Under the pieces are notes generated by a model. It saw only the letters and a list, made by a program, of their open reading frames with translations. It did no database searches and was not told the origin of the DNA. A DNA stretch of 64,000 nt from NCBI GenBank assembly GCA_963377175.1, contig CAUJNA010003777.1:26001-90000 (forward strand), given 5' to 3'. Shown here piece by piece: positions 32,256 to 63,350 of the stretch (position 1 is the first letter of the stretch; each line of letters opens with the position of its first letter). A program made the position numbers and the translations under genes. The DNA is from Effrenium voratum (Eukaryota > Sar > Dinophyceae > Suessiales > Symbiodiniaceae).

Positions 32256-32424
32256 GCCCTTCGGCTCAAGAGCCGGACCACTTGCGCCCAAAACCGGTTC
32301 CCATGATGAAGCTTGTGCCAAGGCATCTGGGGTTTTCATTTGTATCTGGTGTTTTCATTTTTTTGCAGTTGGCATTTGGTCAACTCCCACTGGCAAGAAT
32401 GCCAACGCATGAAGATCTTTTAGT

Positions 32425-32634
32425 GGAAAATGTGAGCCCGTTGGCACAGCGGGTTCACTCTTCCACTGCCACCAGTGAAACCTCATGCACACTGTAGAAG
32501 CTGAGCCCCAACGATCCACATGAATCAGTGAAGGAGCATGACTCTAAAAGGAAAATGCGAGCGCGTTTGCACAGTGGGCTCACTCTTCACTGCCACCAGT
32601 GAGACAGATGCATACTGTGGAAGCTGAGCCCCCC
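32425..32634. repeat. subterminal tandem repeat, left (2 units)
   Basis: Two imperfect units start at 32425 and 32550. Both open with GGAAAATG and contain CACTGCCACCAGTGA and GTAGAAGCTGAGCCCC or GTGGAAGCTGAGCCCC. CACTGCCACCAGTG is itself a short inverted repeat. Paired subterminal repeats close to transposon ends are typical recombinase or transposase binding sites. Confidence 0.6.
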
Positions 32635-33133
32635 ATGAAAAAAATGAATGGGTGCAGTAAAGTGTCATGACTTTTTCAATACCAAGCGCTGGCACCCAGG
32701 ACACCACAGCATTTTTCAAACAAAATCAGTGCTTTTCATAAAAAGGGTATGTATTTATTCAAGCTTGCAGGCTACATTTTTCCAACTGGCAGCCAGCTAG
32801 CTGTTTGCCAGTGTCACACTTGCTTGATGATGCTTGGCTGCCAGCTAGCTGGCAGCCAAGTATTTGGCCAAGAATTTGGCTGATGCTGTGGCCGCCTGAG
32901 TCCAGAAGAAGTTTCAAGCAGATGTTGTTCAACTTTCTACCGCTGCTTGGTGCACCCCCAGATTGCCTGATGGCCCAGAGTGCCAGTATCAGGAGCCGGC
33001 CAGCTGCTCACCTTGCATCAAGTTGCTTCAAGCTGCCACCAGCAGCATGCTTTGCAACAGTCAGTTTCACATGTGGCAGTTAGACACCAGCAAATCTTTT
33101 ACTTCTCACGCACGCAGTGACATGAAATCAGAA

Positions 33134-34576
33134 TCATCCTTCTTGAAGATGTGGCCACTTCCCAGGACTGAAGCCTTTGCCCTTGCCGATGGAGGTCATC
33201 ATTCTCTTCAGGGCTGCTTCCTCAGGGCACAGTTTTGAGATTGTAGGCTTGAGAGCACGCTGGGCAATGTTTGTACTGAACAAGTAATGCCCTGGTTGGG
33301 AATCTGGAGTTCTACTTTTGGATTTACTGAAGCCCAGGGGCGCTCCTTTGGGGTAAATGGAAAGCCCCTTGGTTCAAAGTCGAGCCCAGCAAAGACCAAA
33401 CCAGACCAAAAGTGGAGCCCTAGAATGCTTTGTTGTTTTTGGACTGGCCTCACGAGTGCGTTGGCCTGCAGTCTGATTGGCCTCATTGGTCTGCAGCTCC
33501 TTCTCCAGGATACGCTTCTCATGCTCCTTCCGCTCCTTCTGCTCCTTCTGCTCCTTCTGCTCCTTCTGCTCCTTCTGCTTGCTTTCTTCTTTCCTCTGCA
33601 GCCTCTTCTGGTTGAACTTGTCGAAGGCTTTCTGCATCTTCTCCTCCAGTGCCGCTGTGCCATGCTTCAGCGACTTGATGTTTCCACCTTTGCCGGAGCT
33701 CTCCTGTTTCTTCACCAGTGTTGTAGCCTTCAACTTCTTCACCTCCTCGCCTTTCTCTTTTTGCAGGGTCTTCTTCTTCTCCGCCAGCTCCTGCACCTCC
33801 TCATCTTTGATCTTCTTTTGCACTGGCTTCTTCACCTCCTCGCCTTTCTCTTTTTGCAGGGTCTTCTTCTTCTCCGCCAGCTCCTGCACCTCCTCCTCTT
33901 TGATCTTCTTTTGCACTGGCTTCTTCACCTCCTCGCTTTTCATCTTCTTCTGCCAGGCCACCTCCTCGCTTTTCATCTTCTGCTTCACCGGGAACTTCTT
34001 CACCGTCTTCTCTTTCAGTTTCTTCTGCTTCTCCTTTTCCACACGGCCTTGCTTCATCCTCCCTTTCCTTTCCACAGGCTCCTGCTTCATCTCCACCTCC
34101 ACCTCCTCCATCTCCATGTCCGCCAGCTCTGTCGGTGGCCCGCCGGGCCCTGTGGACGCACAGCTGTGCGATGAAGGGCTGCATGGTTCCTGCTGCCACA
34201 TTGCAGGAGCTCTGGGCGGGCGCAGCCACCTAGTAGGTGGTGGGTGCAGAGGAGCTGAAACAACACGGCTCAGCAACCTAGCAGGTGGCGGGTAAGAGGG
34301 ATGCTTTGGAGTTGGAGCAGAAGGCCTCAGCTCCTTTGGGGTTGGAGCATCAGGGCTTGGCAACGGGTAGCTGCTCGGCAACCTCATGGCGGCCACTGCC
34401 TTGCTGAAGGCTCCAGCTTGGAGTCGGGGCGCGCGTTGCGGCTCAGGAGGGGGCAGGGACCCTCTGGGTGGCACGACAATGGGCACCGCAAGGCGTTGCG
34501 GCTCAGGATGGGGCAGGGACCCTCTGGGTGGCACGACAATGGGCACCACAAATGTTGCAAAAGCAGTGGGTATCAT
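33134..34576 (-). CDS. TIR-borne Lys/Glu-rich coiled-coil protein, left copy
   Basis: The first exon starts at the ATG at 34576. It encodes a Pro-rich N-terminal part of about 140 residues with a direct repeat (VPIVVPPRGSLP twice). A charged coiled coil of about 200 residues follows, with a duplicated block (KKPVQKKIKEEEVQELAEKK) and a run of KEQ triplets. A short intron of about 39 nt then appears to lead into a conserved tail (LKPTISKLCPEEAALKRMMT) ending at the stop at 33134-33136. Translation of the tail stays open in a frame different from the 400-aa frame, which supports splicing. The right TIR carries an almost identical gene. Function unknown; a DNA- or end-bridging structural protein is a guess. 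No enzyme motif is visible. Confidence 0.6.
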
Positions 34577-35145
34577 GCCTGCCAGACCGCCTGCTGTGCT
34601 TGAGAATAAAAAGGCAATGGAAGACTAAGAATGAAGAAAGGCAATGGAAGACTGAGAATGAAGCAATGAAACATATTACAAGCCCTAAACCAACCTTTGC
34701 TCCCTTTGCAGAAGGCATCAAAAGGCAATGGGCAACGCTCTGAGGCTTTGGCCTCTTCTCCAGAGGCTGGCTGCTGGAGGCTGGCTGCCAGCAAGCTGGC
34801 GCCAGCTGCCAGCTAGCTGGTGCCAGCTGCCAGCTAGCTGGTGCCAGCTGCACATTTCGTGTTGCCTTGGCTGGCCACCAGTGAGATGGCAAGTCAGGGG
34901 CTGGCAGCCAGGGCTGCTGCTGGCAGTCACTCATCCATGCGCAACAGGTCTTGGCAGTGGAGGAGTGCAAAGTCCTGACAGTGGGCAGCCAGGCCCCAAG
35001 CTGTGTGACTGCAGCAGGAGTGTTTCAGGGGAGTCCTGCCTCCCTGTCAAATTCGTGCCTCAGGCAGCGAAGCCTGGCCAGGCACTTGCATGCAGCAGTG
35101 AGCTGTTGTGGGCACTGATCTGAGTCAGAGTGATGTCAGGCACGG

Positions 35146-35219
35146 CCTGGCGGCCAGCTTGCTGGCCGCCAGTGCCACGTCTTGCCTTCCAGGCCGCCAG
35201 CTTGCTGGCGGCCTGGAAG
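35146..35219. repeat. paired palindromes near the inner edge of the left TIR
   Basis: GGCGGCCAG-CTTG-CTGGCCGCC at about 35148-35170 is followed by a 15-bp-arm hairpin at 35186-35219 (CTTCCAGGCCGCCAG and its complement around CTTG). The same pair occurs inverted at about 59845-59920 in the right TIR. They belong to the element-wide CCAGC-nn-GCTGG family. Confidence 0.7.
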
Positions 35220-35551
35220 AAGGCAGCTCTATTTTGCGCCCCTCACTTCTGCTAGGCAGGTCACGGGCCGTGGGCTGTTGGGTGAAACCGATCACGGGCT
35301 GTTGGATGAAACCGATCAACCGATCGCGACACGGGCAGGAAGTCATGAAAGCAAGGAAGTAAACTGCCATGAAGTAATCTAAGAGGCCTAAAGATTACTT
35401 TTTTTGTGCGCTCCGCTAAGATTACTTTTGTTGTGCGCTCAATTTGTGTTCTCACATTGCACTTGCATTGCTCCCAATGTTCCTCTGGCTCTCAGAAAGC
35501 AGCCATCTCAACAAGTAATCATTGCGTTGACTTGTTGAGGCTATTTGAGGC

Positions 35552-36515
35552 TCACTTTTTCTGCTTCTTGCGTTTGACCAACTCACATTCAATGGCCTTC
35601 TTTTCGAGGAGCAGCTCATTTGTGGTGCAGTCTGCCCACTTTTTTTTCCCTTGTTTGTAGGCCTTATTCTTTGCCCCTGCTCTGTCACACGCTTCCTTGA
35701 CATCGTCCATGGTCAGTCTTCCATATCGAAGATGTACTTTGACAGAGCCAGGTGCATGTCGCCTAAGTTGTAGTGCATTCTGTGCAGAATTGAATGACAC
35801 TTGCTTGCAAGCCAGCGTCACTGAGCCAAGCGCGCGTATTTCATACTCATTGCCAAGCCCACGCCTTCACCCATGAGCTCTGTAATTAGTGTAGCCCGGC
35901 CTGTCAGCAGACAAGCGCGCTAACTGCCTGCCTAGCAAAAGACAACTGCAGAACCAGGCCTGAGTGCGGACGTAGGCGCGCAACATCAGGTGAGTGTTTT
36001 TTCCCCTGTCGCTGCAAACTTTGCAAAAACAGCGGGGCGCACCGCTTCACCTGTGTGTACACTGCATGGTAGCATAAGTGCGGTGTCTTTGATTTTTGCC
36101 GGCTTGGAAACATCCAACCGGTTTTGGGCACTGTGTACTTTTTCTCAAAGGTCACCTTCTTCAATCTTCCCTTGCCATGCTTGTGCCGCTTGGTCTGGGA
36201 AACTGTCAGTCCATCTTTCATGAGCTTCTTCACCCAGCCAATGTGTTGCTTCCTGATGTACACATCTCCAGGAGATTTTTTTGCTCCGCGGACCTGTCCA
36301 GTGACGGAGATCTTGGGCACATCGCCTTGCACGTTGATGTCCTCCACTTTCAGGGCCACAGCTTCTCCTGTTCGAAGGCCGAAATAGCCTGTGAACGCCA
36401 GCACGACTTGGAGTCGAGCACCGCACATTTTGCCAATGAATTTGAGCCATTCTGCCCACAAACGAACTGAAAGAGCTGGTGCTTGTCCTGTTTTTATCTT
36501 CTTCATAGGCGCCAT
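35552..36515 (-). CDS. tyrosine recombinase (phage-integrase fold), three exons
   Basis: Exons on the minus strand are 36515-35960, 35900-35834 and 35762-35552, joined by GC-AG introns of 59 nt (35901-35959) and 71 nt (35763-35833). The product is 277 aa. Box I is GYFGLRTGEAVALKVEDI with its catalytic Arg. Splicing restores box II as VARLRPHSGRATLITELM, the H-x-x-R motif, which is destroyed if the first intron is read through. The second junction gives MKYARHAPGSVKVHLRYGRL, where the Tyr of RYGRL is the likely nucleophile. These are hallmarks of the tyrosine recombinase family, which cuts and rejoins DNA through a 3'-phosphotyrosine. A Lys-rich tail follows. It lies just inside the left TIR and points at it. 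The N-terminal DNA-binding part of typical members is missing or lies in unseen upstream exons; the ATG at 36513-36515 may be internal. The class (Crypton, DIRS-like or new) cannot be told. Confidence 0.85.
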
Positions 36516-37408
36516 GGCAACTCAATCTGCACAGGCAGTGAACGGCCCTTTAGTTAAACATGTGACCGGTCAACGTTGCATGCTGCTCTTACCACCCCAG
36601 CTGCTGGGTCCAACGCACTTCAGCTGCTTGGTTTAATGCAGTTGCTGTTTCAGCTGCTTGGTTGAATGCATTGGCTGTTCACAAAACGCAGGCCAGCAAC
36701 TCCAAGGTGAGTCCATGAGTCTATGCGCAAACAGCACATTGCAAACTGGACACCTCTCACAGCTCTTCATCTCTACAAATTGCAGCCTTCACAACCATGG
36801 AGACCAGCAGGGCTGCCAAGCCATGCGCACATTGGCCGGTATTTACAGTTTGGCGATTATTAATCCAGCCCACAGCATGCTTGGAGGAGTCCAAAGCAAG
36901 ACCAATTTCTAGCAGCTAGCAACAGTTCCCAGGTTCAACCCAGGGCAAGGGGGGCAGGGCGTTGCATAAATGGTTTCTGAAAGGTTTTGGTTCAGATACA
37001 GGTCTGCTGGAAACCCTTCTTGGATGCTGTCGCTCTAGGTGTGGCAAGGGTTGCAGAAGAAGAAAAAACACAATTGGCAGCCATTCTGCATCATGCTTCT
37101 TGAACAAGTTGCACGGAGGTCTCCGCTGTGCACAGCAACATTGGGATCAATTTTACAATGTCAGTGCCTGAGTTCTTGCTGCATGCGTTGCGTGATTCAT
37201 TGGGTGCTCATTAGCAATTTGCTGATTCACACTGCTGCTGATCGCGGAGATCAAGTGAGTGACAAAGTTCAATTTGCTTCCAATGGACAGCTCACAGGGT
37301 GGCACTTGCCAAAGCATTCTCACAAACACTTTCAGAAGAAGACTCACCAGCACAACAAACTGCATGTAACAACCACTCAGGAGTCAGTCTGATTGCAGGC
37401 TGCCAGCC
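36516..37408. other. element interior without supported gene
   Basis: No splice-supported exon is visible on either strand. A diffuse CAGCTGCTTGGTT repeat occurs around 36600-36680. Upstream exons of the recombinase could lie here on the minus strand, but I could not find an N-terminal DNA-binding segment. Confidence 0.4.
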
Positions 37409-40400
37409 ATGTCGGGTGTGGCGTCCTACAAGAAGTGGACAGGGACCTCAGAAGCTGAGATAGCTCTTAGGCGCAGGCTGGAGCTATGCTTGGGCTGCAG
37501 GAGCCTGAGCTGTTTGACATGTCTTGCAGGCTGGACGCGAAAAATGCCAAAGAATCGAGAAGAAAAGAAAGGAGGAAGGCAGAGAAGGCAGGGCTGGTCT
37601 TGCAGCAGTGCTTTTTAAAGCAGAAAACATTGGACAGGAGGCAGCAGAGGCCAAGGCTGGAGCCTCAGTTGTCATCATGCTTTGGACAAGATGATTGAAC
37701 AGAGGCCGCTGCAGGGGTGAGCAATCAGGCCTGAGCTTTCCACACATTTGCACATTGACTGCCAGCTAGCTGGCAGCCAATTTCCTTTTTTCATGATAGC
37801 ATTTAATTTTGGCAGCCAGCTAGCTGGCAGCCAGTAGCCAAGTTTAAGTCATGAAAACATCTTGAATTGAACTAACATGCTTCCTCAGGCAACTGGCTCC
37901 GCAACGGCATCACAGCCAGTTTGCCAGGCCTGGCGCTGTGCAATTATCCCTGAAATATGATTGGCTTAAGAAAAGCTTCCTGAACTATGATTCTGATTGT
38001 GGTTCTGATTCAAACCAGTTCACAGCCTGCAGGCAGAGCAGGAAGCAGCATCGCAGGCCACAGCCAACTGCAGAGCTGAGATCACCAGAGTGTATCATTC
38101 TGGCAGCCAGCTGGTGTGTGAGTGCTGCTCATGGGAGAGCATCATCAGGCAGTGGCAGAGCTGGACGGCAAGGCCTTGGCCAACAATCAAATCTTGCTGC
38201 ATTCATGTTGTGAATGCCTTGGTTGCTCTTCAAGGCAACTTCCCAGGCGTTCATGATGTGTTAGCCCCAGATTTCACAGTCAAGGTTTCAAACACCTTGC
38301 GCCTCAAACATGGTTGTTTTGGGCTCTTTTGAGCTCAAAAACCTCTTGGTGTAAGGGTTCCTACGAACAGCTCCAAAAGCAATGTCATTTTCTGGCAGCA
38401 TACCCTGTGTGCTGGCACCCGGCCATGCAGCCATGTTTCCCAGAACACAAAACGCGGTCAGAACCTTTGCAAGTTAGTTCATTGCAAACCTTTCTACTGT
38501 TGGCCTAACATGCATTGGATAAGAGGGAGGGCGCTGGAGCATAAACTCGTTGCTTGCAGGCCAGCCAAGGGCTGGGCAGTGAGGCCTGGGCGTTCCACAC
38601 ATTAAGGCTGCTTTCATTGGCTGCCAGCTAGCTGGCAGCCAAGTGCCAATTTTTGTTCATGATAGCATCTCATTCTGGCAGCCAGCTAGCTGGCAGCCAG
38701 TTGCCAAGTTTGGATCATGAAAGCATTGTGAAATGAACTAACGTGCTTCTTCAGGCAGCTGGCCCCCCAACGGCGTCACGGCCACCTTGCGAGGCCTTCG
38801 CAATGTGATGTGTTGTGATGTTTTGATATGTTGCCTGCCATCCCATGCTTTTTTACTTTGCAGTCGGAAACTTAGTCAAGAACTGGCAACAAACGCCCTT
38901 TCTATTGAAGGCAGGCGCATGGATTGCTTCCGTTTTTTGTTGCACCGACTAAAAGGGTTTTGACTGGTCTGGTGCAAAAGCAGGCTGAACCTGACTCAGT
39001 TCATAAGAAGGCACGGCTTCTCAGGCCCATTGGAATCCTTTGCGTTTTGCTATCCTGAGGCACCGCCTGATGGTGACAAAGAGGCCGCATGGGCATCTCA
39101 CACTCTCTCTGGCAGCCAGCTAGCTGGCAGCCAGTGCATGTTGCCCATGAGTTTGTAGCGATCTTGCTCATGAAAGTGCTAAGTCTTGCACCTGACAGGT
39201 CTCTGGGGAAGACATGGGCAAGGGCAGCCAGGAGTCATGGGTGAGTGTAAACTGGGAAACTGGGCAGGGCTTCAGCAAGGGCAGGAAAGATTGTTTTGGA
39301 CCGGGTTTGCAAAAGAAGCGCTTGAAACGTTGTCCTGCACGCTCATGTGTCATGAGACCAGTTCACAGCCAGGACGTGAAAGCAATGCAGCTACTCGAGC
39401 AACTGCAGAAGCGGTACAAGGCTTGCGCTGCTTTTGAGATGGGTGACCTCATAACGACATGAGGCCCAGCAGGTTTCAAACAGTGCCAAAAACCATGCCA
39501 TTTCTCTGGCAGCATGCCATGTGTATTGATTGGAGCCCTTGTTGTGGGCTGGCTTGGTGAAGATGCAGCTGCGTTTTTTTTTATCCAACGCCTTTCAGGT
39601 GCCCCTAAGTGAAAGCTTGTGGCAAGCAATCTATATGCCTGCCATGACTGAGGAGGGCCGCCCAGGACCTGCCCAAGCCTCAGAAGGTCATCAGTGAGAA
39701 AAGCCATGCAAAAACAAAGCAATCAGATGCATTGTTTTTCATGAGGCACACGATGCTTTCAGTCCACAACACATTCTGGCTGCCAGTTAGCTGGCTGCCA
39801 ATGAACATGAATTTGCATTTTGTATTCAACAGATAGACTTGCCTTAAGCATGTGCATGGCCTCTTTTTCACACATTGATGCTGTTTTCATTGGCAGCCAG
39901 CTAGCTGGCATGCTGGCAGCCAGCCAGCTGGCAGCCAGTTGCCAAGTTTGGATCACGAAAGCATTGTGAAATGAACTGACATGCTTTCTCAGGCAGCTGG
40001 CCCCCCAACGGCATCACAACCACTTTGCGAGGCCTTTGCAATGTGATGTGTTGTGAAGTTGTGATGTTTTGATGTGTTGCCATCCCATGCATGGTTTCTT
40101 TGCAATTCAAAACTTAAGTGCTGAAGAACTGCCCAATCTGAGGCTGGCAAAAAACGCCCTGCACCTGTGGAGGCAGGCACATGGTGGCGCCTACTGAAAC
40201 GGTTTCACTGGCTCGACAGCAGGCGGAAAACGGCCCAGATTTGAAGAAGGCAGCTGGGCATCTCACACTTTGTTTGGCAGCCAGCTGGCTGGCAGCCCAT
40301 GCATGTTGCCCATGAGTTTGTAGCGATCTGGCAGCCAGCATCTGGCAGCCAGGCACCAAGTCTTGCCCATGAATGCTAAGTCTTGCACCCGACAGGTCTC

Positions 40401-41029
40401 TATGGAAGACATGGGCAAGGCCGCCATGCCTGAGGACAGCCAGTTTGCATGAGTCATGAATGAGTGTTTGCAGCACATGGCGCATTGCAGTTGCGTATTT
40501 GGCTGAGCTGGCTGGCAGCCAGAAGTGGTTGCATGGACGGCTCAGCCATTTCTGGCTCAGTAAGCCATTGGCAATGAGTGCAGTTCGGCATGGCTCACAA
40601 TCAAGGTCACCACATGTGGTGGCCAGAGGAGGTGGCCACGTTGCGGTCAGACGATGGAGAGCAGGAGAGGCTCCATGCAGAAGAGGGCCGCCCGCTGGAT
40701 GAAGGTCAAATTGGCGGTGATTGGTTGAGTGGTATCTCGCACCATTCAGCTTGCAGCTTTGGGCTTTGAAGGGCAGTGACATGTCAGCAGTGCAGGAACT
40801 TCCTGCACTCACGACGATGTGCGAATTCAAGCTGTTGGAAGTTAGTTGTGTTGAGTGGCAACTTTCCTTTTGTGAATTGCCTGGAGATTTTGTGCCCAGC
40901 AGCATCGAGCGCAGTGGATCAAGAATGTGCAGAGCGTGGATGAGGTGGTGGACATGCTGAAGGTTTTTCAGGAGACCAAAGAGGCTGACATCTCTGCACT
41001 GTTGGAGTCAGCGCAGGGGGCTCAATGAG
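37409..41029 (+). CDS. low-confidence multi-exon gene(s) in the element
   Basis: Exon-like pieces on the plus strand: 37409-~37480 (ATG, MSGVASYKKWTGTSEAEIAL), ~37527-37605 (DAKNAKESRRKERRKAEKAG), ~39205-39235 and ~40385-40445 (paralogous VSGEDMGKG and VSMEDMGKA), ~40578-40710 (MWWPEEVATLRSDDGEQERL) and 40904-41029 (QWIKNVQSVDEVVDMLKVFQ ... ending AQGAQ, stop). The last piece is a clean amphipathic helical exon. Connections between pieces are unproven. The region has been internally duplicated, so some pieces may be dead copies. No known domain recognised. Confidence 0.3.
37741..40450. repeat. triplicated segment with CCAGCTAGCTGG palindromes
   Basis: The order palindrome, GTTTGGATCATGAAAGCATT-like text, CAGGCAGCTGGCCCCCCAAC-like text occurs at about 37.74-37.95, 38.62-39.25 and 39.89-40.45 kb. 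The second and third copies also share the downstream GACATGGGCAAGG block. CCAGCTAGCTGG cores lie at 37762, 37816, 38624, 38682, 39116 and 39897. This looks like segmental duplication inside the element. Confidence 0.65.
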
Positions 41030-41061
41030 AAGCGCAAGGGACCTGACTGCCTGGCATCAAC

Positions 41062-41092
41062 AAGGAGCTTCACAAAATTTGTGAAGCTCCTT
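41062..41092. terminator. perfect 15-bp-arm hairpin after a stop codon
   Basis: AAGGAGCTTCACAAA and its exact reverse complement flank a single base. It starts 33 nt after the stop codon at 41027-41029. A role in 3'-end formation or mRNA stability is an inference; eukaryotes do not use Rho-independent terminators, so it may simply be a foldback repeat. Confidence 0.45.
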
Positions 41093-41208
41093 AAATATTC
41101 AAGCAGATAGATCATGAAAACCCTTGCCAGATCTTGTTTGGGGCTCCTTGTGCAGGCCGCCTGGCACTGGCAGAAGCAATGTAGATTGAAATAATTCTGG
41201 CTCTTCAG

Positions 41209-42034
41209 GTGCCAGTGCCAGTGCCAAACGTCATGAGCAATTTGCCAGATCCTCCAGCTGCGCAAGAAAACAGTTTGTCCAGCTGCGCAAATCCGCAAGT
41301 GCACATGAGCGCGCGTATTGTGAGTTTGTTTGTGACCAGGAGCCTTCCACAACAGCTGCCATGAACTCAGATTCAACTTGACCGCTTCGCTTTGCTGTGG
41401 TCTTGAGGTTGAGGGGGCCAATGCAGAGGCTGAGGCCTGAGCATCCTGCAGATTTCTCATGAAGTGTTTGCTTCAGTCTGGCAGCCAGCTAGCTGGCAGC
41501 CAGTGTCCCAGGCTTGTTCATGAAACCGCTTCTTTCAGGTGCCTGTCCTGGTGGAGTCCTCCTTGCCCTCCTTCTCCCCAAAGGTAGGCAGCCAGCAGGC
41601 TTTCCTAGCTGGCTGTTTCTTGGTGGATTTCAATCTGTTTTGCTTGCCTGCAATGTGACCACACCTCTGCACAGGAACAAAGGCAAGAAGAGAAAGATGA
41701 TGAAGAGGGAGAAGAAGAAGGAATGGAGGACTGCAACCTGTTTGCCAGAATGCATTGAGTTGATTGTAAGAGGGCAACCCTGCAGGAAAGCATCGCGCCT
41801 ACATCGCCAGCTGATGAAATAGTGGAGGCGGTGGCAGATGCTGTGGTGGTGATAGAACATCCGGCCACGCCATCGGACATGTCTTGGGCTATGACCAATT
41901 TGGCACTGCTCTTGCCAAGCGTGCGGAGAAGAAGTGAAAAGTGCGAACGCGCTGGAACAATGTGCATGGCAATGGGCGCTCATGTCACTGCAAGGGAAGT
42001 CACAGGGCTTTGCAAACAGTCTCACCTGGGCTGA
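41209..42034 (+). CDS. small acidic protein, four exons, function unknown
   Basis: Exons: 41209-41319 (ATG at 41233, MSNLPDPPAAQENSLSSCAN), 41539-41583 (VPVLVESSLPSFSPK), 41675-~41733 (EQRQEEKDDEEGEEEGMED) and 41786-42034 (ESIAPTSPADEIVEAVADAV ... stop). Acceptor AG and donor GT bases sit exactly at the phase-0 ends of the first two exons. The third junction needs a GC or GA donor around 41729-41735. A strongly acidic central block and Pro/Ser-rich ends suggest a disordered protein. A CCAGCTAGCTGG palindrome lies in the second intron, at 41485. No family recognised; real coding status is moderately supported by the phase agreement. Confidence 0.45.
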
Positions 42035-42354
42035 GGCAGCCTCAACTGGAGTTCATTAGCTTCCAGGCGCCCAGTTGGCTGGCAGCCATGTCATGTCATT
42101 GTCAGTGCCAGCAAGAGTAACCACAATGGCCATGCAACAACATCAATCATCACTGCCATGAACAGACATTGCATTGCCAATGCGGCAATTGCCATTGTCA
42201 TTGCCGTCATCATTCAGCATCATCCTCCTCCTTTTTCTCCTCCCCATCCTCCTGATCACTGTCATTTCCATGACCACCAACAATATTCTTAGATACCTGG
42301 GCCGCCATGTTCATGACCATAATCCTCATCACCGCCCACGCTATCAGTTTGTGT

Positions 42355-42355
42355 T

Positions 42356-42392
<37 letters not shown>

Positions 42393-42500
42393 CCTGAGTC
42401 ATCATCATCATATCATCATGATCATCAACATCATCATCAACATCATCTTCAACATCATCTTCATCATCACCATCATCATTACCACCACCATCATCATCTT
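42355..42500. repeat. (CAT)n trinucleotide repeat
   Basis: About 145 bp of CAT/CAA triplets. The His-rich and Met-rich frames on the two strands are repeat artefacts. It directly abuts the hairpin array that follows. Confidence 0.85.
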
Positions 42501-46430: not shown

Positions 46431-46919
46431 ATGCCCAGGTTTTGTAAAAAAAAGAAAAAGAAACATCCCTGATTGGAACTGTGAAGTCCCAGGCAGGCAG
46501 AAGTGAGCTTGTCTGGTGCTTCCAGGTGCCGGGCTGTCAGCCAGCTCACAGGCAGCCACGTGCTCACCTGCCATTGCAGCCATCAGCTCAGCTTGCTGGG
46601 TGTGTTTCGCTGTGGCAAGTCTTTTCTGAATGCTTCTCTGATCTTTTCTGTCCATTGTAAGATCTTGCCTGCATGTACCTCTTTCCATCACAGTCTGTTA
46701 AGGTTTGGCCTGCCCTGCATTGCAGGGCAGTTGCACTTTGAAGGTAGGGCTTGAAACATGCATTTCTGTAAAGTCGGCAGCCAACAAAAGCCAGCAAGAT
46801 TGCATGAGGTGAGGTACTACCTACTAGCAACAGCCATGAGTTGGCAGCCAGTTATTGCAGGCAGCACTGGGAGACAACTAGCTTGTAGACCCTGTAGTTT
46901 ATGGAGCCATTGGTTTTGG

Positions 46920-47930: not shown

Positions 47931-48166
47931 CTCCTTCCCCCTCGCATCAGGTGAGGTATTAAATTACTGGGGTAATTGTTCAAAGAAGTTCTTTGCAGCT
48001 GCGATTCACGTATGAGGCTTGACGTCAGCAGGGTGGCGCCTCAGCTTCAGCTGCAATCACACGTGTGAATGGCTGGGCTTTCCTGCACGTTGAAGTTTTT
48101 GCGAGAACTGGAATTAAATGATAGCATTGGCCCAAAGCAGCTTTTTTGCGCTTTGGGGTTGGAACC

Positions 48167-52536: not shown

Positions 52537-52840
52537 CGGACGCTCAGCGAGTTGCAGACATCAATGTAGCATGCGCTGAGTACCAGTGTGAGACCTCGGA
52601 TGTGAACGGGAGACAAAAGGTTGTGCATGCGCTCGAGTGTTTTTGTTGACACTTCACTTTGCGTTAGTGTTGCATTGCTGAGGTGGTGGCAACGACAGGC
52701 CTGGCATGCGGGCTGCTTATCAACCACAGTGCCTGTTTTTGTTCTAGATTTGCACGGTGTTCTTGAAAGCTGTGCGCTTTTTCCTGAGAGCCATTTCCGG
52801 CCAAGTACGTCTTTTGCCTCCGTTCTCGACCACCATCATT

Positions 52841-53641
52841 ATGGCTGCAGGCGCTGCAGCATTCGAGTGCTTGTGGGGGCCGGCCCCATCACCAAAGGAG
52901 AGTGTCAAGAAAGATGAGGCATCACCGCCATCTGAGAAGCTCACCGTGAGCATGAACTTGCATTGGCTCGGTCAGCCAGACTTGGAACTGGAGACACCAT
53001 CTCCACCAAAACAGCGTTCACTGTGGGACATGCTGAGCTCTTGCTCCAAGGAGTTGTCCGCTGAGCCTCAACGTCTCATGATTGAGGACGCTGGTGCTGT
53101 GCAAGGGAAGCAGCTGATGCTCACTGAGACTGATGGCAGCCTGGCATTGACTGATCAGGGCTGCTTGGCGCTCACTGATGGGAAGCCACATGAAAGTGAT
53201 CCAGCAGGAGTACAAGCACCTGTGGTCAACCTTGGGCAGCAGCAAGGGCCTGGTGAAGCCATTCAAAGGGATCAAGCAAAAGAACAAGTGCCTGCAGTCA
53301 ACCTTGGGCAGCAGCAGAAGAGGCCTGGTGAAGCCCTGGTAGAATCAAAGGCCAAGAAGGGCAAGATGGAGAAGAAGGAGAAGAAGACATTTGCAAACAG
53401 GGCTTGTCCCAAAAATGTGGAGTCTGAATCCTTCTACAAGTGGGTCGCTCTCAAGAAGACCTTCGAGCTGGTCATTATGCCGGTCATGCCACTAAAGGGC
53501 AAAAGGGCGGTTGCAGAGGACAACTTCTGGAGAAAGTGCGCCAGCCAATGGCAAGGCACCCTGGATGCTGCCGCATCGGACTGCTTGGCGCATAAGTTGG
53601 CGCATGAATGGATGGCAAAGGTAGATTTGGAGAAGTTGTAG
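52841..53641 (+). CDS. Lys-rich cargo protein, single exon, unknown
   Basis: The ATG at 52841 gives MAAGAAAFECLWGPAPSPKE; 266 aa run to a stop at 53639-53641 without an intron. The middle has a direct repeat (VNLGQQQ...PGEA twice, about 28 residues apart), then a basic stretch (KAKKGKMEKKEKKTFANRAC). The C-terminal helical part (FWRKCASQWQGTLDAAASDC) may be a small folded domain. A longer frame opens upstream at 52757, but the context favours 52841. No known domain recognised. It lies 300 bp after the large unknown gene and 470 bp before the methyltransferase gene, on the same strand. Confidence 0.55.
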   Translation: MAAGAAAFECLWGPAPSPKESVKKDEASPPSEKLTVSMNLHWLGQPDLELETPSPPKQRSLWDMLSSCSKELSAEPQRLMIEDAGAVQGKQLMLTETDGSLALTDQGCLALTDGKPHESDPAGVQAPVVNLGQQQGPGEAIQRDQAKEQVPAVNLGQQQKRPGEALVESKAKKGKMEKKEKKTFANRACPKNVESESFYKWVALKKTFELVIMPVMPLKGKRAVAEDNFWRKCASQWQGTLDAAASDCLAHKLAHEWMAKVDLEKL

Positions 53642-54112
53642 TTTCAGCAATTGCGCTGGGGTGTGTGAATAGATCACACCGGGGTTTGCGCTCTTGCTTT
53701 GTGGCATTGCAGTTATGACAAGCCAGGGGTAATCACTGCAACATTGCGGCAGAACAAAAAGTAGTCAGAGAGCCAACAATGCTTTCATATTCTTGCTGAT
53801 TGACCACGGTTCATGGGTGGATGATGCAAGTGCACGCTGACCGGACAGGTGGATTCGCACGAACCCTGGCTACACCCAGGCTCACTGTCACACGCTGAGG
53901 TTTTGCTTTGCTGCAAGAGTCCTGCCATGTATCGCCTGTTGCCTTTTACTGCTCAACCATGGCAAAGGTTCATTGCAGGACATATCCACCGTCAAGTTAA
54001 CTCATTGAGCATGATGTCCTCTTCAAACAGGTCAGCAATCAGGACTCAGGCACTGCATGTCATTTACATCCACGCTGAGTGCACTAAGTGACTAGCCAAG
54101 ATGGCTTGAGTG
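53642..54112. other. spacer without supported gene
   Basis: No splice-supported frame. It probably contains the 3' end of the upstream gene and the 5' region of the methyltransferase gene; no regulatory motif recognised. Confidence 0.4.
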
Positions 54113-56143
54113 ATGTCCAGCACCAGCACAGAAGGCGAACCTGAGGGAGAGAAGCCTCAATGTCCACCAGCTGGCAGGGCCAGGGGTGGGAAGGGAAAGG
54201 GCCGAAGTAAGGCAGCCAGTGCTGGCCAAAAAAAAGGCAGCCTGAAATGCAGCAAAGTGGAACAGTTGAGGCCGCTGGAGAAGTGCGAGTCAGAGCCTGG
54301 CAGCAGCACTGACACTTCCCAGAGTGAAGAGACAAAACGCATTGCTCAAGCATCAGCAGCTTGGCAAGCTGCAACTGCAAAGGGCAAGAAAAGAACAGCC
54401 CAGCAGGTTGCAAGTGATGAGAGCAGCAGCCTGCCAGAGCAATCTGCTGCAACTTGCGGTGTGGAGCTGCTGGAGTTCGGGAAGTGGGTGATGGAAAAGG
54501 TGCTTTCTGCAGATGAAAGCAATTTGCTGGCCAGGAAGCATGCTGAGGAGGAAGCTTGGCTTGCCAAATGCATTTCAAATTGCAAGCGTTGCAATGCTTT
54601 ATATTCCTTTCTTTGCTTGCCTGACCTGTCCTCAGGAAGTGACCATTGCTGAGTTCTGCGCAGGCATGGCCACAGGCACAATTGTGTGCAGGGCCTTGGA
54701 GCAGCTGATGCAGGATCAAGGTCATCGCATCAAGTGCTTTACGAGCTTCTACACAGAAGCAGTTGGTTGGAAACGACAAGTCATCCAGCAAGTTCACAGT
54801 TCCTGCCACAAGGGCACTGAAGCTTGCATTCTGAATACCACAGGAGAAGTTGCGCACAGGCTGAAGCAAGGCATTGCCAACTACAAGTGCGCCATAGCAA
54901 TCAAAGCAATTGAATGTGATGATATAAGCCAGTGCAGTGGTACCCAAAAAAGCGCACCTCCCCAGCATTTCATTTAAAGACTCAGGAGCAGAAGATTATG
55001 AGTTTTGCGCAGTAGCATGCTCAGCCAAGCCAAGGTATTGGACGAAGAAGGTTCCAGCGGAAGAAGTTTCATGCAGTTTGTGAGGTTCCTGCAGGAGTTG
55101 CGATGGGAGGATCGGCCGCAGTGGATACTGCTGGAGTGTGTAAGCAACCTTGCCAAACAACGATCCTGTGTGCAAGAACGTAGCACCACTGTTGTGACGG
55201 GAAAGCTGGCAGAACTTGGCTTTGAAGGGCAGTGGAAAGCGCCTCTTCTGAAAATGGTAGTATCAGCATTGATGGCACATGTTGACCACTAGGCGGTTTG
55301 CAATCCGAGGTGCTTGACTCTCGTTTTTTCGGCATTCCTGCTTCAAGAAGCAGGGCCTGGGGTGTGTTCACGCAATGTCGTGCTGGAGTGGGTGCAGACG
55401 GCAGAAAGCGCCAGCAGACACTGCTGCAACAAGTCTGGAGTTTCGTGATGAGATGCCAATCCAAAAATCCACAACCTCTCAAAGAAGTTTTGGAGCAGGC
55501 TGGCTTTCACTTCAGCAAGGAGGCAGTGTCTATGGAGATGGAGAAAAAGAGGCTGCCTGTTCGCAAAAATGCTTCAACAAAGTGGAAGACCCAGCACGTG
55601 CAGTTTGCAAAAGTGGCTTGCACTTGATCAGCCAGTTTTTGTTCAGTCTATTGTACGTTCTTTTTGTCAAAGGCCCATTCAAGATTCTTCCTTTCTTGCC
55701 AGGCAAAGTCCTTGAACTTGGATCATGAATTTTGGCGAAGCCTTCGGGAGCAAGGGCAATCTCATGGCTTGACAGAGCGAGAGACTGATTTGGTGGTGTT
55801 GAAGGCTGCCAGCTGGTGCAAAGGGCGCCCTCCTGAAGTTCTGCGCAACCATCTCCTTGTGTGTGCTGTTGGGGATTCCATCGTGCGGGCCAAGTTCTCC
55901 CAGACACACCCCTGCATCCTGCCATCCAAGAAGTACGTTTACTTGTGCAAAGGGCAGCTGCACATGAACCAGTCCTGGCGCGTTCCTCTGATTCTGCAGG
56001 GCCTGGGTTGGCAAGAGCTAACCCTTGCAGGGCTGACAGACAGCTCTTTGTCACTGAGCCATGCCCAATGGCAAGATTTGGCTGGGAATGCTTTCACAAG
56101 CAATGTTTTGCTGGCTTTGCTGGTGGCCGTGCTGTTGCACTAA
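54113..56143 (+). CDS. C5-cytosine DNA methyltransferase-like protein
   Basis: Starts at the ATG at 54113 (MSSTSTEGEPEGEKPQ), a disordered Lys/Ser/Glu-rich N-terminus of about 160 aa. An intron of about 28 nt ends at 54635. Motif I follows as VTIAEFCAGMATGT, and a SAM-pocket Glu in SFYTEAVGWK. Near 54911-54955 comes ECDDISQCSGTQKS, in the place of motif IV, with Cys-Ser instead of Pro-Cys. Next are QWILLECVSNL (motif VI, Glu kept), RFFGIPASRSRAWGVF (motif VIII, R-x-R kept), HPCILPSKKYVYL and LAGNAFTSNV (motifs IX-X), then the stop at 56143. This order is that of C5-MTases, which transfer a methyl group from SAM to cytosine. Exon joins around 54970-55010, 55240-55310 and 55625-55705 need splicing and are not fixed. 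The unusual motif IV makes catalysis uncertain. Related enzymes are known as cargo of dinoflagellate retrotransposons; here it lies in a TIR element. Confidence 0.75.
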
Positions 56144-56512
56144 GTTCAAGATTGCAAGCAAGCTTTCACGGAAAAAATCTGACTGATTGCATGCCCAGTG
56201 GAGCTGCTTGTTGCTACTACTCATGTACATTTGCTTGTCAACGCCTGGCAGGCCCAGTGTGAGATCACTATTCAGAAGGCACTGCTTGCATGCAGTTTGG
56301 CACGCTTGCGCGGGTTGAATAAATGCACTGTGCTTGGAAACAATCACATTGCTCACAGCGGCATGAAGGCTAGCAGTGAAGCAATGTGGCAATGTGCAAA
56401 TCATGGAAAACATTGATTGTTGGTGTGCAGAGACATGGAGACTGAGCAGGCATTGCAGTAGAAGTAGCAAGGCATGGAAGATGAGTAGCCTCAGCATGGC
56501 TGAACACGTGCC
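56144..56512. other. spacer without supported gene
   Basis: Only short overlapping frames. It separates the methyltransferase and DUF7869-type genes; no regulatory motif recognised. Confidence 0.4.
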
Positions 56513-59200
56513 ATGGAAGATGAGTCTATGTCTTCAACAGGCACTGAGTCCAGCCAACCTGCAAGGAGGCCCAAAGCTAAAGCCAAGCGCAAGCCAGTCA
56601 ATAATGCTGTGCGGCAACCTGCAACCAGCAGCACGTGGTCTGCATTTGCGCTCCTTTACTGTAACAGTCTGAGCTTCATATGTGAACAGCTAACTTGAAT
56701 AATAAACGTCCATCCTGAGCTGAGGTTGAAGTTCAATGAGGATTTGTTACTTGCACGAGCAAGCCAGAAAGGATGCCTGCATTGTGGACACCAGTGCTTG
56801 GAGCTTGTTCAGCCATGCCTTGAACAGTTGAAAACATGGCGGGAACAGTTTGGCCGCATGGCCAAGGATGTCCAGGACAATGAAATTTTGTGGATTTTTC
56901 GAAATCGCTCTGGAAGCAGACCTGCCACTGCGGCCACAGAATCAGAAGCTGTCAAAGAGAATGCGGCCACAGACTGTAAACAAGATGCAAGTTCTGGAAC
57001 GGACACGGAGAAGTCTGAATCTAGCAGTGACAAGGCCCCCAAGTGGAGATTACATGCTGGCAGCAGCACTGAGACAGAGAAATCTGGGGCAAGGAGTGCA
57101 CCATCCCTTGTGCGCAGGTTCAAGAAGACTCTTGACATATTTATGATGTGACCTTTGTTGTTTGTGTTGCATCACAGCACAATCTGACCCTTTGCGGCCA
57201 AGGCGACGGGTGCAACGGCTGAAGACCAAGCAGCCAAGCATTCAACTGGAAGGCATCATCTCATCAGTGAAGTCCTTTGTTTGCATCCACACTGCCAAGA
57301 AATGCTTTGGCATTGGCTCCTCTAGATTGAGCAGGGTTGCTTGCCTGCAAGGAGTACAAAATTGGCCTTGCAATGTGTCGTCATGCCTGGCTGGCCAAAA
57401 GGTTCTACAAGGACTGCCTGACCGGCGCAGAAAATCTGAGAGAATGCCAGTGGTCAAGGCTGCCTCACAGCTGGATGTGTGCCTGCGGTTTTTGCAACAG
57501 CGACTGGGCTCCACACAGCTCACTGTGCACATGGTGCGTCATATTGCTGTCATGTTATGTCATGTTTTTTGTACAGCAGAATGAGCTGAGGATATATCAT
57601 TTCCAGGGTGATAGTCTACCAGACCGCTTTGAATTTCAGAACCAGGACCGCGGCCGAATGATTGCAGCTCCAACCAGCCGCAGGGTGCCTGTGAACGACT
57701 CAGACTCAGAGGATGCCAGTGCAGGAGCGCAATGTGTTTCCACTGTGGCAGCAGAAGAGAAAGAAGCTGATGCCAGGGCAGTGGCTTTTTTGGCAGACAA
57801 CGCTGTGGTCACGGACTGTCCCATGCGCCACAGCGTCGATACGTTGGAGTGATGAAACCCATTACTTTATTTCACATGCTTCGGAGTTGGTGTGCAGACC
57901 ATGGGTTGGAGCCATCTCCCAGCTTCACCAGTTTCCGCCGCGCTTTGAAGCAGAGCCGCCCATGGTTGTCTTTCAGAAAGTCCACAGGGCAACATGCCTG
58001 TTGTGACAGCTGCATGTATTTCAAGAGGAAGCTCAAAGAGCGGTGCAGCATTGAGGAGCGCCAGAACACCATGCAGGATTACTGCTCCCACTTGATGGAC
58101 AATTGGAGGGACAGACAAGCAGACGCTGCATGGGTTGCACTCAGCATTACAACTGCAATGGCAGGGCCGCCGTTTCAGGCAAACAGCGTGCTTGTGCTGA
58201 GAGCTGATGGCCTAGACCAAGCCAAGCACAAGATTCCACGCCTTCACCAACCTTGCAAATCAGTGGAGAATCTTCTGAGGCCATGCTGCCATATACAAAT
58301 GACATGGGCCCACGGACATGGATTCATGTTTGGGGTAGGAGACCCAGACATGAAGAAGAACACAGTTAGCAACGTTGACTGCCTTGCAAGAGCTCTCAAC
58401 CAGATCCATGAACACCACGGTGCCATCCCCAGACATATCTATTGCATCATGGACAACACGAGCCGGGAAAATAAGAATCAGAAAATGGTCAAATGGTGGT
58501 TGAAGTTGAAGGTATTCAACATCGTGGACCATGCGTACATGGGTTTCGCCATGAAGGGCCACACCCACAATGCAATAGACGCCTTGGGAGGAGCCGCTTG
58601 CGTTTCCACCAGCACAAAGGTGTTCGACACCCCAGAGCAATTGCAAGAGATCTATCAGCAGTTTTTGCAGCGAACGCGATTTGAGACAAGTCTTTATTTC
58701 AAGACAGCCTTCAAACACGATGAGGCTGCAGATTGGGAGACCTGGTTGCAGGACATGCCGCTGGACTTGAGCTTGTTAACCGGGCCTCGAGCCCCTCATC
58801 TTTTGCACATCCTGTCACGCTCTGCACTTACAAAGGACGATCTTTCAGCAGAACACCAGACATCATTTGAAGGTGCCCCTCCCCCTCATCATGACGACGT
58901 GATGCTAGCAGTTCATCACAAGATGAGCGACCAGCGCCCATATCAACTGGCACTGCTTATACCTGGCTCGCACTTGCCTTCTTGCGTGGCACTTGTTCAA
59001 GCGCCTTGGCTTGAAAAGACAGCAGGGCATATTCCAGGGATGGAGGCAGGTAGGCAGGGTGGTTGAAGTCAATCATTGCAGGACAGCCATCGGGTGTGCA
59101 AGCGCGACGTGACATTCCCATGAAAGAGAGAGAAGAACTTGCACGGAAAGCTGATCAAGCTCTTGCCAATCATGTGCCTTCGCCTGCATGTTGGTGCTGA
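56513..59200 (+). CDS. DUF7869-type transposase-like protein
   Basis: Exons: 56513-56637 (ATG, MEDESMSSTGTESSQPARR), 56725-~57149, 57178-57335, 57402-57533, 57607-57777, 57834-59049 and 59082-59200. Phases agree at most joins; donors are GT, plus GC at 57778. Introns are 56-87 nt, except 32 nt at 59050 and an unresolved very short one near 57150. Splicing gives the family-like core GIGSSRLSRVLQGLPDRRR, then GDSLPDRFEF, RRYVGVMKPITLF and a Cys motif (CCDSCMYFKRKL). The RNase H-like segment follows: RADGLDQAKHKIPR, MDNTSRENKNQ and GHTHNAID. The Asp/Asn-rich D...DN...GHTH.D pattern matches proteins annotated as DUF7869 in dinoflagellates, from memory. A DDE-like nuclease role is an inference. 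It is the last gene before the right TIR. Confidence 0.72.
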
Positions 59201-59651
59201 GCGCTGGAGACTAGCGGTGTGCTTGTGAGTGGGTGGCCGGCCTGAGGCAATCAGCAAGGAAGCACATCTGTTCCTCACCGGATGGATTCAAGGTACCCGC
59301 CGCAGGGCACCTCGTCCATCACATTACAGCTTTTTGGAAGCAGCACCTCTTGCACGTGGAGCTCAAACACCTCTTGCACGTGTGAACCCATTCCAGCAGG
59401 ACGCGCCCAGACCTGTCCAGGTTTTACAGAATGATGGCCATATCGCACGTCATGCTTCTTTGCTTGAAATGGCCCAGCTGTTGTTTTTGCCTTGTGGTTT
59501 TGCCTGATTGGCATCGAGGCTGCAATGCAAGCAACATCTGATGGCTCTGACAATGAAGCAGCATGCCAGGTGATTGACGATTGACAGTGGAATTACTGCA
59601 GGATCTCAGGAAGTAAGCTTTCCAGAAAATGTTGACCATGGACAGCAACAT
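59201..59651. other. spacer before the right TIR, possible short frame
   Basis: A 92-codon plus-strand frame (59229-59507) could be a further exon or a chance frame; it contains a short direct repeat (ARGAQTPLARV). No domain recognised and no clear splice support. Confidence 0.3.
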
Positions 59652-60488
59652 GAGCGCACAAAAAAAGTAATCTTTAGGCCTCGTAGATTACTTCATGGCA
59701 GTTTACTTCCTTGCTTTCATGACTTCCTGCCCGTGTCGCGATCGGTTGATCGGTTTCATCCAACAGCCCGTGATCGGTTTCACCCAACAGCCCACGGCCC
59801 GTGACCTGCCTAGCAGAAGTGAGGGGCGCAAAATAGAGCTGCCTTCTTCCAGGCCGCCAGCAAGCTGGCGGCCTGGAAGGCAAGACGTGGCACTGGCGGC
59901 CAGCAAGCTGGCCGCCAGGCCGTGCCTGACATCACTCTGACTCAGATCAGTGCCCACAACAGCTCACTGCTGCATGCAAGTGCCTGGCCAGGCTTCGCTG
60001 CCTGAGGCACGAATTTGACAGGGAGGCAGGACTCCCCTGAAACACTCCTGCTGCAGTCACACAGCTTGGGGCCTGGCTGCCCACTGTCAGGACTTTGCAC
60101 TCCTCCACTGCCAAGACCTGTTGCGCATGGATGAGTGACTGCCAGCAGCAGCCCTGGCTGCCAGCCCCTGACTTGCCATCTCACTGGTGGCCAGCCAAGG
60201 CAACACGAAATGTGCAGCTGGCACCAGCTAGCTGGCAGCTGGCACCAGCTAGCTGGCAGCTGGCGCCAGCTTGCTGGCAGCCAGCCTCCAGCAGCCAGCC
60301 TCTGGAGAAGAGGCCAAAGCCTCAGAGCGTTGCCCATTGCCTTTTGATGCCTTCTGCAAAGGGAGCAAAGGTTGGTTTAGGGCTTGTAATATGTTTCATT
60401 GCTTCATTCTCAGTCTTCCATTGCCTTTCTTCATTCTTAGTCTTCCATTGCCTTTTTATTCTCAAGCACAGCAGGCGGTCTGGCAGGC

Positions 60489-61931
60489 ATGATACCCACT
60501 GCTTTTGCAACATTTGTGGTGCCCATTGTCGTGCCACCCAGAGGGTCCCTGCCCCATCCTGAGCCGCAACGCCTTGCGGTGCCCATTGTCGTGCCACCCA
60601 GAGGGTCCCTGCCCCCTCCTGAGCCGCAACGCGCGCCCCGACTCCAAGCTGGAGCCTTCAGCAAGGCAGTGGCCGCCATGAGGTTGCCGAGCAGCTACCC
60701 GTTGCCAAGCCCTGATGCTCCAACCCCAAAGGAGCTGAGGCCTTCTGCTCCAACTCCAAAGCATCCCTCTTACCCGCCACCTGCTAGGTTGCTGAGCCGT
60801 GTTGTTTCAGCTCCTCTGCACCCACCACCTACTAGGTGGCTGCGCCCGCCCAGAGCTCCTGCAATGTGGCAGCAGGAACCATGCAGCCCTTCATCGCACA
60901 GCTGTGCGTCCACAGGGCCCGGCGGGCCACCGACAGAGCTGGCGGACATGGAGATGGAGGAGGTGGAGGTGGAGATGAAGCAGGAGCCTGTGGAAAGGAA
61001 AGGGAGGATGAAGCAAGGCCGTGTGGAAAAGGAGAAGCAGAAGAAACTGAAAGAGAAGACGGTGAAGAAGTTCCCGGTGAAGCAGAAGATGAAAAGCGAG
61101 GAGGTGGCCTGGCAGAAGAAGATGAAAAGCGAGGAGGTGAAGAAGCCAGTGCAAAAGAAGATCAAAGAGGAGGAGGTGCAGGAGCTGGCGGAGAAGAAGA
61201 AGACCCTGCAAAAAGAGAAAGGCGAGGAGGTGAAGAAGCCAGTGCAAAAGAAGATCAAAGATGAGGAGGTGCAGGAGCTGGCGGAGAAGAAGAAGACCCT
61301 GCAAAAAGAGAAAGGCGAGGAGGTGAAGAAGTTGAAGGCTACAACACTGGTGAAGAAACAGGAGAGCTCCGGCAAAGGTGGAAACATCAAGTCGCTGAAG
61401 CATGGCACAGCGGCACTGGAGGAGAAGATGCAGAAAGCCTTCGACAAGTTCAACCAGAAGAGGCTGCAGAGGAAAGAAGAAAGCAAGCAGAAGGAGCAGA
61501 AGGAGCAGAAGGAGCAGAAGGAGCAGAAGGAGCGGAAGGAGCATGAGAAGCGTATCCTGGAGAAGGAGCTGCAGACCAATGAGGTCAATCAGACTGCAGG
61601 CCAACGCACTCGTGAGGCCAGTCCAAAAACAACAAAGCATTCTAGGGCTCCACTTTTGGTCTGGTTTGGTCTTTGCTGGGCTCGACTTTGAACCAAGGGG
61701 CTTTCCATTTACCCCAAAGGAGCGCCCCTGGGCTTCAGTAAATCCAAAAGTAGAACTCCAGATTCCCAACCAGGGCATTACTTGTTCAGTACAAACATTG
61801 CCCAGCGTGCTCTCAAGCCTACAATCTCAAAACTGTGCCCTGAGGAAGCAGCCCTGAAGAGAATGATGACCTCCATCGGCAAGGGCAAAGGCTTCAGTCC
61901 TGGGAAGTGGCCACATCTTCAAGAAGGATGA
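60489..61931 (+). CDS. TIR-borne Lys/Glu-rich coiled-coil protein, right copy
   Basis: Almost identical to the left-TIR gene; one Val replaces Ala (NEVNQ against NEANQ). Exon 1 runs from the ATG at 60489 to about 61658 and exon 2 from about 61698 to the stop at 61929-61931. A 39-nt GT-AG intron joins them in phase; a GC donor at 61637 is an alternative. The tail exon reads LFSTNIAQRALKPTISKLC and ends WPHLQEG. The gene is transcribed outwards, towards the element end, as is its partner in the left TIR. Its complete retention in both TIRs suggests selection, or simply recent duplication. Confidence 0.6.
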
Positions 61932-62426
61932 TTCTGATTTCATGTCACTGCGTGCGTGAGAAGTAAAAGATTTGCTGGTGTCTAACTGCCACATGTGAAA
62001 CTGACTGTTGCAAAGCATGCTGCTGGTGGCAGCTTGAAGCAACTTGATGCAAGGTGAGCAGCTGGCCGGCTCCTGATACTGGCACTCTGGGCCATCAGGC
62101 AATCTGGGGGTGCACCAAGCAGCGGTAGAAAGTTGAACAACATCTGCTTGAAACTTCTTCTGGACTCAGGCGGCCACAGCATCAGCCAAATTCTTGGCCA
62201 AATACTTGGCTGCCAGCTAGCTGGCAGCCAAGCATCATCAAGCAAGTGTGACACTGGCAAACAGCTAGCTGGCTGCCAGTTGGAAAAATGTAGCCTGCAA
62301 GCTTGAATAAATACATACCCTTTTTATGAAAAGCACTGATTTTGTTTGAAAAATGCTGCGGTGTCCTGGGTGCCAGCGCTTGGTATTGAAAAAGTCATGA
62401 CACTTTACTGCACCCATTCATTTTTT

Positions 62427-62636
62427 TCATGGGGGGCTCAGCTTCCACAGTATGCATCTGTCTCACTGGTGGCAGTGAAGAGTGAGCCCACTGTGCAAAC
62501 GCGCTCGCATTTTCCTTTTAGAGTCATGCTCCTTCACTGATTCATGTTGGGGCTCAGCTTCTACAGTGTGCATGAGGTTTCACTGGTGGCAGTGGAAGAG
62601 TGAACCCGCTGTGCCAACGGGCTCACATTTTCCACT
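62427..62636. repeat. subterminal tandem repeat, right (2 units)
   Basis: Inverted counterpart of the repeat at 32425-32634; the motifs GGGGCTCAGCTTC and TCACTGGTGGCAGTG each occur twice. Confidence 0.6.
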
Positions 62637-62937
62637 AAAAGATCTTCATGCGTTGGCATTCTTGCCAGTGGGAGTTGACCAAATGCCAACTGCAAAAAAA
62701 ATGAAAACACCAGATACAAATGAAAACCCCAGATGCCTTGGCACAAGCTTGATGGCCATTTTTAAGTAGGTGGTGCGGTTCCCAGTTTTTTTTTGTAGAG
62801 CCTATATAAATCTGACCCGGGTTCCGCTTATTTTTTAGTTGCTGTGTGTCTTGCAACATAACAACACAACATGTGTGGGGCCGACGGGACTAAATATGCG
62901 TTAGTAGGCATAATGTGTGGCTTCTAGTGCTGCCATG

Positions 62938-62938
<1 letters not shown>

Positions 62939-62978
<40 letters not shown>

Positions 62979-63093
62979 TGCGTGTGCGTGTGCGTGTGCG
63001 TGTGCGTGTGCGTGTGCGTGTGCGTGTGCGTGTGCGTGTGCGTGTGCGTGTGCGTGTGCGTGTGCGTGTGCGTGTGCGTGTGCGTGTGCGTGT

Positions 63094-63126
<33 letters not shown>

Positions 63127-63291: not shown

Positions 63292-63350
<59 letters not shown>

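Follow-up and report, generated by a model that had tools for sequence, protein, structure and literature searches.

In the Tn3-type transposon Tn4430, which makes a 5-bp target duplication, the tyrosine recombinase TnpI resolves the replicative cointegrate, and in the yeast 2-micron plasmid the FLP tyrosine recombinase acts between identical inverted repeats. Cryptons have a tyrosine recombinase as their sole mobility gene and no terminal inverted repeats (TIRs), and Starships carry a captain recombinase with DUF3435. Here we describe a 30,442-bp element at positions 32309-62750 of a 64,000-nucleotide stretch of the dinoflagellate Effrenium voratum genome (GenBank assembly GCA_963377175.1, contig CAUJNA010003777.1, positions 26,001 to 90,000, forward strand; hereafter the window), in which a tyrosine recombinase, a C5-cytosine methyltransferase-like gene and a DUF7869 gene lie between long TIRs. 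We consider it likely that this element is a full-length member of a hitherto undescribed group of giant DDE transposons that operates by the steps set out below, and the group is probably a new superfamily of DDE TIR transposons. The earlier note on this DNA, made from the sequence alone, knew of no described class with this gene combination in dinoflagellates, and we found no description of one in the literature searched, although most subscription journals, preprints and Repbase lay outside that search, so that an entry that is unpublished or present only in a database is possible.

Like members of the Mos1/mariner and retroviral-integrase class, the element has a predicted RNase H-like core with invariant acidic residues, TIRs and short target duplications. 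It differs from them in its 4-bp duplications, in the size of the elements (20-61 kb) and of their arms (1.4-17.8 kb), in the linked recombinase and methyltransferase, and in Pfam scans of the DUF7869 proteins, where DUF7869 alone exceeded the cut-off and no other transposase family was matched. Tn4430 likewise combines a transposase of the DDE class with a tyrosine recombinase in a single TIR-bounded element, but here introns occur in a eukaryotic-type gene, the element is far larger and the duplication is 4 rather than 5 bp. The 2-micron plasmid likewise joins a tyrosine recombinase to identical inverted repeats, whereas the present element is integrated, TIR-bounded and equipped with a transposase. 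The long TIRs and the DDE-type gene do not fit a Crypton. Similarly, the recombinase does not fall among Starship captains, as a Pfam scan at E<=0.1 returned only Phage_integrase and a sub-threshold DUF1317 match, with no DUF3435.

BLASTN comparison of the window with itself confirmed, at exactly the coordinates proposed in the earlier note, a 30-kb element with nearly identical 3.1-kb TIRs, the left arm of 3105 bp (32309-35413, + strand) and the right arm of 3099 bp (59652-62750, - strand) being 99.6% identical over 3106 columns. The five or so differences that had been counted by eye correspond, in a MAFFT alignment, to 3 substitutions in 3098 aligned bases and two indels (1 and 7 bp). Immediately outside both ends stands a perfect 4-bp direct repeat, GATG (32305-32308 and 62751-62754). 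Each arm opens with a conserved terminal signature (32309-32361, + strand, at the left end), which across families consists of a 14-bp tip starting AAGC followed by two 19-bp tandem direct repeats ending TTTCATTT. This signature is common to the window and contigs C225, C3678, C3253, C3204, C957, C779 and C1129, and in each of the six elements that were read at both ends the first 53 bp of the two ends are identical.

Recurrence of the ends elsewhere had been suggested as a check on the reading as a large DNA transposon-like element, which is supported: in the genome searched (1.16 Gb, 3699 contigs) they recur in C225 and C3678 and, more distantly, in C3253, C957, C779 and C1129, with 4-bp target duplications at C225 and C1129. 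The five elements read at both ends beyond that of the window measure 20.6-61.5 kb. Within the same family, C225:524798-545435 is a second element (20,638 bp, flanked by CATT on both sides), while C3678 holds one arm and then a 5-kb stretch of N. A 61,465-bp element (C3253:159953-221417), found around a recombinase match 53% identical at the protein level, has arms of about 17.8 kb, pieces of which are 98.6-99.7% identical, with one 133-bp insertion in the left arm. Translated comparison showed that its 26-kb interior has the gene order and strands of the window, namely recombinase (-), gene B (+), methyltransferase (+) and DUF7869 (+), and no similarity was found between the arms of the two elements past about 60 bp, save one 26-residue translated match of 28 bits. 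A third family comprises C957:376494-409297 (32,804 bp), whose 1439-bp arms differ at one base, and two elements of which only the ends were read, C779:166224-199050 (32,827 bp) and C1129:19400-46177. The arms differ in length from one family to another, at 1.4, 3.1 and 17.8 kb. Three of the six elements are flanked by exact 4-bp duplications, and none longer (window GATG, C225 CATT, C1129 TTCG), and two more match only crosswise; C1308 shares its flank with C1129, of whose locus it is probably a second contig, and was for that reason left out of this count. The inverted repeats, whose tips are conserved among several copies, and a duplication of fixed length are as expected of a class II TIR transposon. 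The end signature was not seen in small stretches at the predicted places in C1891 and C3135. Separately, C3238 and C3074 have only short pieces in common with the window element.

The gene that the earlier note called transposase-like belongs to Pfam family DUF7869. Its main ORF encodes 431 aa (57771-59063, + strand), and comparison with C3253 adds a conserved C-terminal exon (59247-59336, + strand). The predicted model of a relative, P0004, has an RNase H/DDE transposase fold like that of Mos1 with invariant aspartates, a comparison covering the folds on the VIA lists; the codons of the predicted DDD triad lie in the window at 58206-58208, 58452-58454 and 58578-58580 (+ strand). On the strength of this model of P0004, DUF7869 is predicted to be a DDE transposase with an RNase H-like fold and an acidic triad. 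No paper naming DUF7869 was found in the literature searched, and if our reading is true, this Pfam domain, to which no function is assigned, supplies the transposase for a group of giant elements.

The recombinase and methyltransferase-like genes that had been noticed alongside it were both found in the same element. The tyrosine recombinase gene (35555-36521, - strand; 279 aa after intron removal) is intact once two predicted GC-AG introns (35959-35901 and 35833-35763, - strand) are removed; the spliced model scores 34.1 bits against Pfam Phage_integrase (cut-off 27.1), compared with 23.6 for unspliced exon 1 alone, and the catalytic positions R, HxxR, H and Y are all present. There are 38 recombinase matches in the genome, many in sets resembling near-identical copies; a search of the recombinase profile against PDB sequences found nothing. 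The introns are very short (59 and 71 nt as predicted). Because the C3253 paralogue lacks the first of them, an intron has been gained or lost inside a mobile element. The C5-cytosine methyltransferase-like gene (54645-56137, + strand) was delimited by its Pfam DNA_methylase match and by comparison with C3253, and has several exons whose borders are provisional. Against the DNA_methylase cut-off of 22 bits the window exon scores 21.6 and the C3253 copy 24.5. No canonical PCQ was seen by eye in the translations, and the C3253 ORF gave a single match among PDB sequences, to SNF2 with E 0.69.

The three genes are linked at many loci of the genome. After loci had been collapsed by hand, and with uniform placement as the expectation, a DUF7869 match lay within 40 kb at 12 of 34 recombinase loci (0.19 expected), and all 12 pairs are divergent in the orientation of the window. 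At methyltransferase loci, DUF7869 stands downstream on the same strand in 19 of 25 cases (0.14 expected) and the recombinase upstream on the opposite strand in 13 (0.06 expected), with both partners at 11 loci and either partner at 21. At least four recombinase identity groups contribute to these counts (window; C3253/C1891; C957/C779/C1129; C3434/C2800). At six of the methyltransferase loci (C3478, C3378, C231, C2236, C3239 and C3140) roughly 10 kb separate the methyltransferase from DUF7869, and the vicinity holds no recombinase match; these are possibly a sister group of elements.

From this material we infer a division of labour among the three proteins. DUF7869 would bind the conserved ends, with their tip and paired repeats, and insert them into target DNA at a stagger of 4 bp, so that the insertion would be flanked by a 4-bp duplication whose sequence varies; given the predicted fold, the invariant residues and the linkage, we regard this role as very probable. 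The recombinase, which is oriented divergently to the other genes at all linked loci and adjoins one arm wherever arms were read, would work on the element's own DNA rather than in target choice, either by resolving a replicative cointegrate or by recombining the arms, and the chances of such a role are about even. The methyltransferase may mark the DNA of the element and thereby have it tolerated or silenced within a methylated genome, which we propose tentatively. Methyltransferases are reported in Symbiodinium LINE and DIRS retrotransposons, together with widespread CG methylation (de Mendoza et al., PMC5890265; this and the other papers cited by PMC number are drawn on in part). Such findings make a marking role plausible, yet are not evidence for it in this element. 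In a related comparison, KDZ and other fungal transposons carry TET/JBP dioxygenases, and Zisupton duplications are 8 bp (PMC12730594, in the portion used here). These are likewise DNA transposons with an enzyme acting on cytosine methylation, but the present element has a methyltransferase rather than a dioxygenase and a 4-bp duplication, which sets it apart from KDZ/Zisupton; the term 'tyrosine recombinase' is absent from the main text of that paper. More speculatively, the group may form a eukaryotic superfamily that moves by two chemistries, in which the DDE enzyme would insert replicatively, the recombinase would resolve the product or recombine the arms, an exchange that would keep arms of 1.4-17.8 kb near-identical, and a self-encoded methyltransferase would mark the DNA. 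If our main reading is true, the group would offer eukaryotic DNA transposons in which a DDE transposase is linked to a tyrosine recombinase and a cytosine methyltransferase. It could then be tested how elements with multi-kilobase inverted arms move and keep those arms identical, and whether they influence host methylation.

Comparison within the window family bears on the fate of the arms and of whole copies. Similarity between the two window arms far exceeds their similarity to the arms of another copy (151 substitutions in 2732 bases between the left arms of the window and C225), while the C225 arms are mosaic and in one block share 289 identical bases, a stretch in which each is 5.4% different from the window. 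The near-identical window arms and this tract are as expected if arms are copied or converted mutually and then decay, and mutual exchange may thus keep the two arms of one copy alike. The C225 interior is collinear with window 35196-53324, with 219 substitutions in 6351 aligned bases of the first segment and 315 in 4852 of the second, which includes a badly aligned stretch at about 47.8-48.4 kb. Indels are frequent and many shift the frame, and no codon periodicity of substitutions was seen by eye in 300-bp block counts, which suggests that at least one copy is decaying, probably the shorter C225. This copy has no counterpart of window 53325-59640 and so lacks the methyltransferase and DUF7869, while its recombinase exons are kept; since it retains its ends and duplication, it was either mobilized in trans or underwent the deletion once inserted. 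A nested insertion into the window at 53325-59640 is rejected because C3253 has the methyltransferase and DUF7869 at that place, the pair is present at 19 of the 25 methyltransferase loci, and C3678 still has the adjoining ~100 bp beside its arm. It is therefore C225 that was deleted, and this copy is most readily interpreted as a deletion derivative undergoing decay.

Several observations weigh against a DDE-driven group with a shared gene set. No DUF7869 match is near 22 of the 34 recombinase loci; eight loci pair the methyltransferase with DUF7869 and have no nearby recombinase match (C284 and C3475 in addition to the six with ~10-kb spacing); C1114 and C3321 have methyltransferase and recombinase with no DUF7869 match; and at the methyltransferase loci of C322, C1109, C3145 and C3132 neither partner was matched. 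The linkage searches score best candidates only, so that the absence of a partner is weak evidence. Copies of one family are related by descent, and the 12 and 19 linked loci are not independent. As to the ends, in most blocks the C225 arms match each other no better than they match the window, the C3253 element is flanked by CTTT and CTAG with no matching duplication, and C957 and C779 have no duplication of their own. Oriented recombinase end first, these last two read CACC...ATTT and ATTT...CACC, a pattern to be expected from reciprocal exchange between two near-identical insertions or from an assembly swap. The single end read in C3204 also abuts CTAG, and no homology to the arm was found over the 10 kb in which the far end of a 61-kb element would fall. 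Part of this evidence would suit a recombinase that is itself the mobility enzyme, whether Crypton- or Starship-like or integrating a circle in the manner of Tn916, with DUF7869 and the methyltransferase as cargo: the recombinase is intact in the window, 22 of its 34 loci have no DUF7869 match within 40 kb, its exons persist in C225, which lacks DUF7869, and the solved structures nearest to it in fold are conjugative-transposon and Xer/phage integrases. We nevertheless consider this unlikely, as the duplications are 4 bp long and of unrelated sequence, as expected of a DDE staggered cut, the ends are TIRs with repeated subterminal motifs, and eight loci with methyltransferase and DUF7869 have no recombinase match nearby.

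The crossed flanks of C957 and C779 could also be mis-joins of near-identical copies, which would favour reading the window inverted repeat as an assembly palindrome. Arms of different length and unrelated sequence flank the recombinase and DUF7869 in three families, three elements have true duplications and the C225 arms have diverged, all of which argues against such an artefact and makes it highly improbable. An endogenised Polinton-like or other DNA virus might be suspected from the 20-60 kb size, the long TIRs and the tyrosine recombinase, since polinton-like viruses, for example in Oxyrrhis, are 15-40 kb long with TIRs and often a tyrosine recombinase (PMC12721341). However, Pfam scans of 105 window ORFs and 66 C3253 ORFs detected no capsid, packaging ATPase, protein-primed PolB or rve (introns in multi-exon genes could hide short domains), the C3253 ORFs matching only DUF7869, Phage_integrase and DNA_methylase, and no relatives of DUF7869 or the recombinase were found in IMG/VR. 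By these scans the element does not fall among Polintons or polinton-like viruses, and a viral origin is very improbable. PHROGs matches comprised integrase, one weak DNA methyltransferase and families with no named function. The dinoflagellate elements SymbioDIRS-Dnmt3 and SymbioLINE-Dnmt carry cytosine methyltransferases, the former with a tyrosine recombinase (PMC5890265), which invites the reading of a DIRS-type retrotransposon. These are retrotransposons, whereas the same scans gave no reverse transcriptase or RNase H match here, and clean TIRs with 4-bp duplications differ from the A-coding-B-A-B repeats of DIRS; membership in DIRS is scarcely credible. The giant transposons of PMC6431247, as far as that source was drawn on, are another system. 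A group of giant DDE transposons accordingly remains our preferred reading.

The element carries further genes and repeats. Gene B (48560-52506, + strand) is a multi-exon gene collinear with its C3253 counterpart at 31-71% identity by exon; it has one 99%-identical protein in a protein search and gave no match in a Pfam scan. In the left arm, a 400-aa ORF with a Lys/Glu-rich part (33374-34576, - strand; 416 codons stop to stop) has no Pfam match, and its copy in the right arm spans 60489-61691 (+ strand), so that the gene would occur twice per element; no clear counterpart was seen in the C3253 arms, where there is one weak 26-residue match. Between the recombinase and gene B lie internal tandem-repeat arrays with a unit of about 120 bp and others (42495-46431, by self-comparison) and a 0.9-kb imperfect palindrome (46966-47884). 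The ~120-bp array is present in C225 too, and C3253 has arrays and a palindrome of its own. A long array of simple repeats of the GTGTGC type, at window positions 62940-63371, lies just past the element on its right side.

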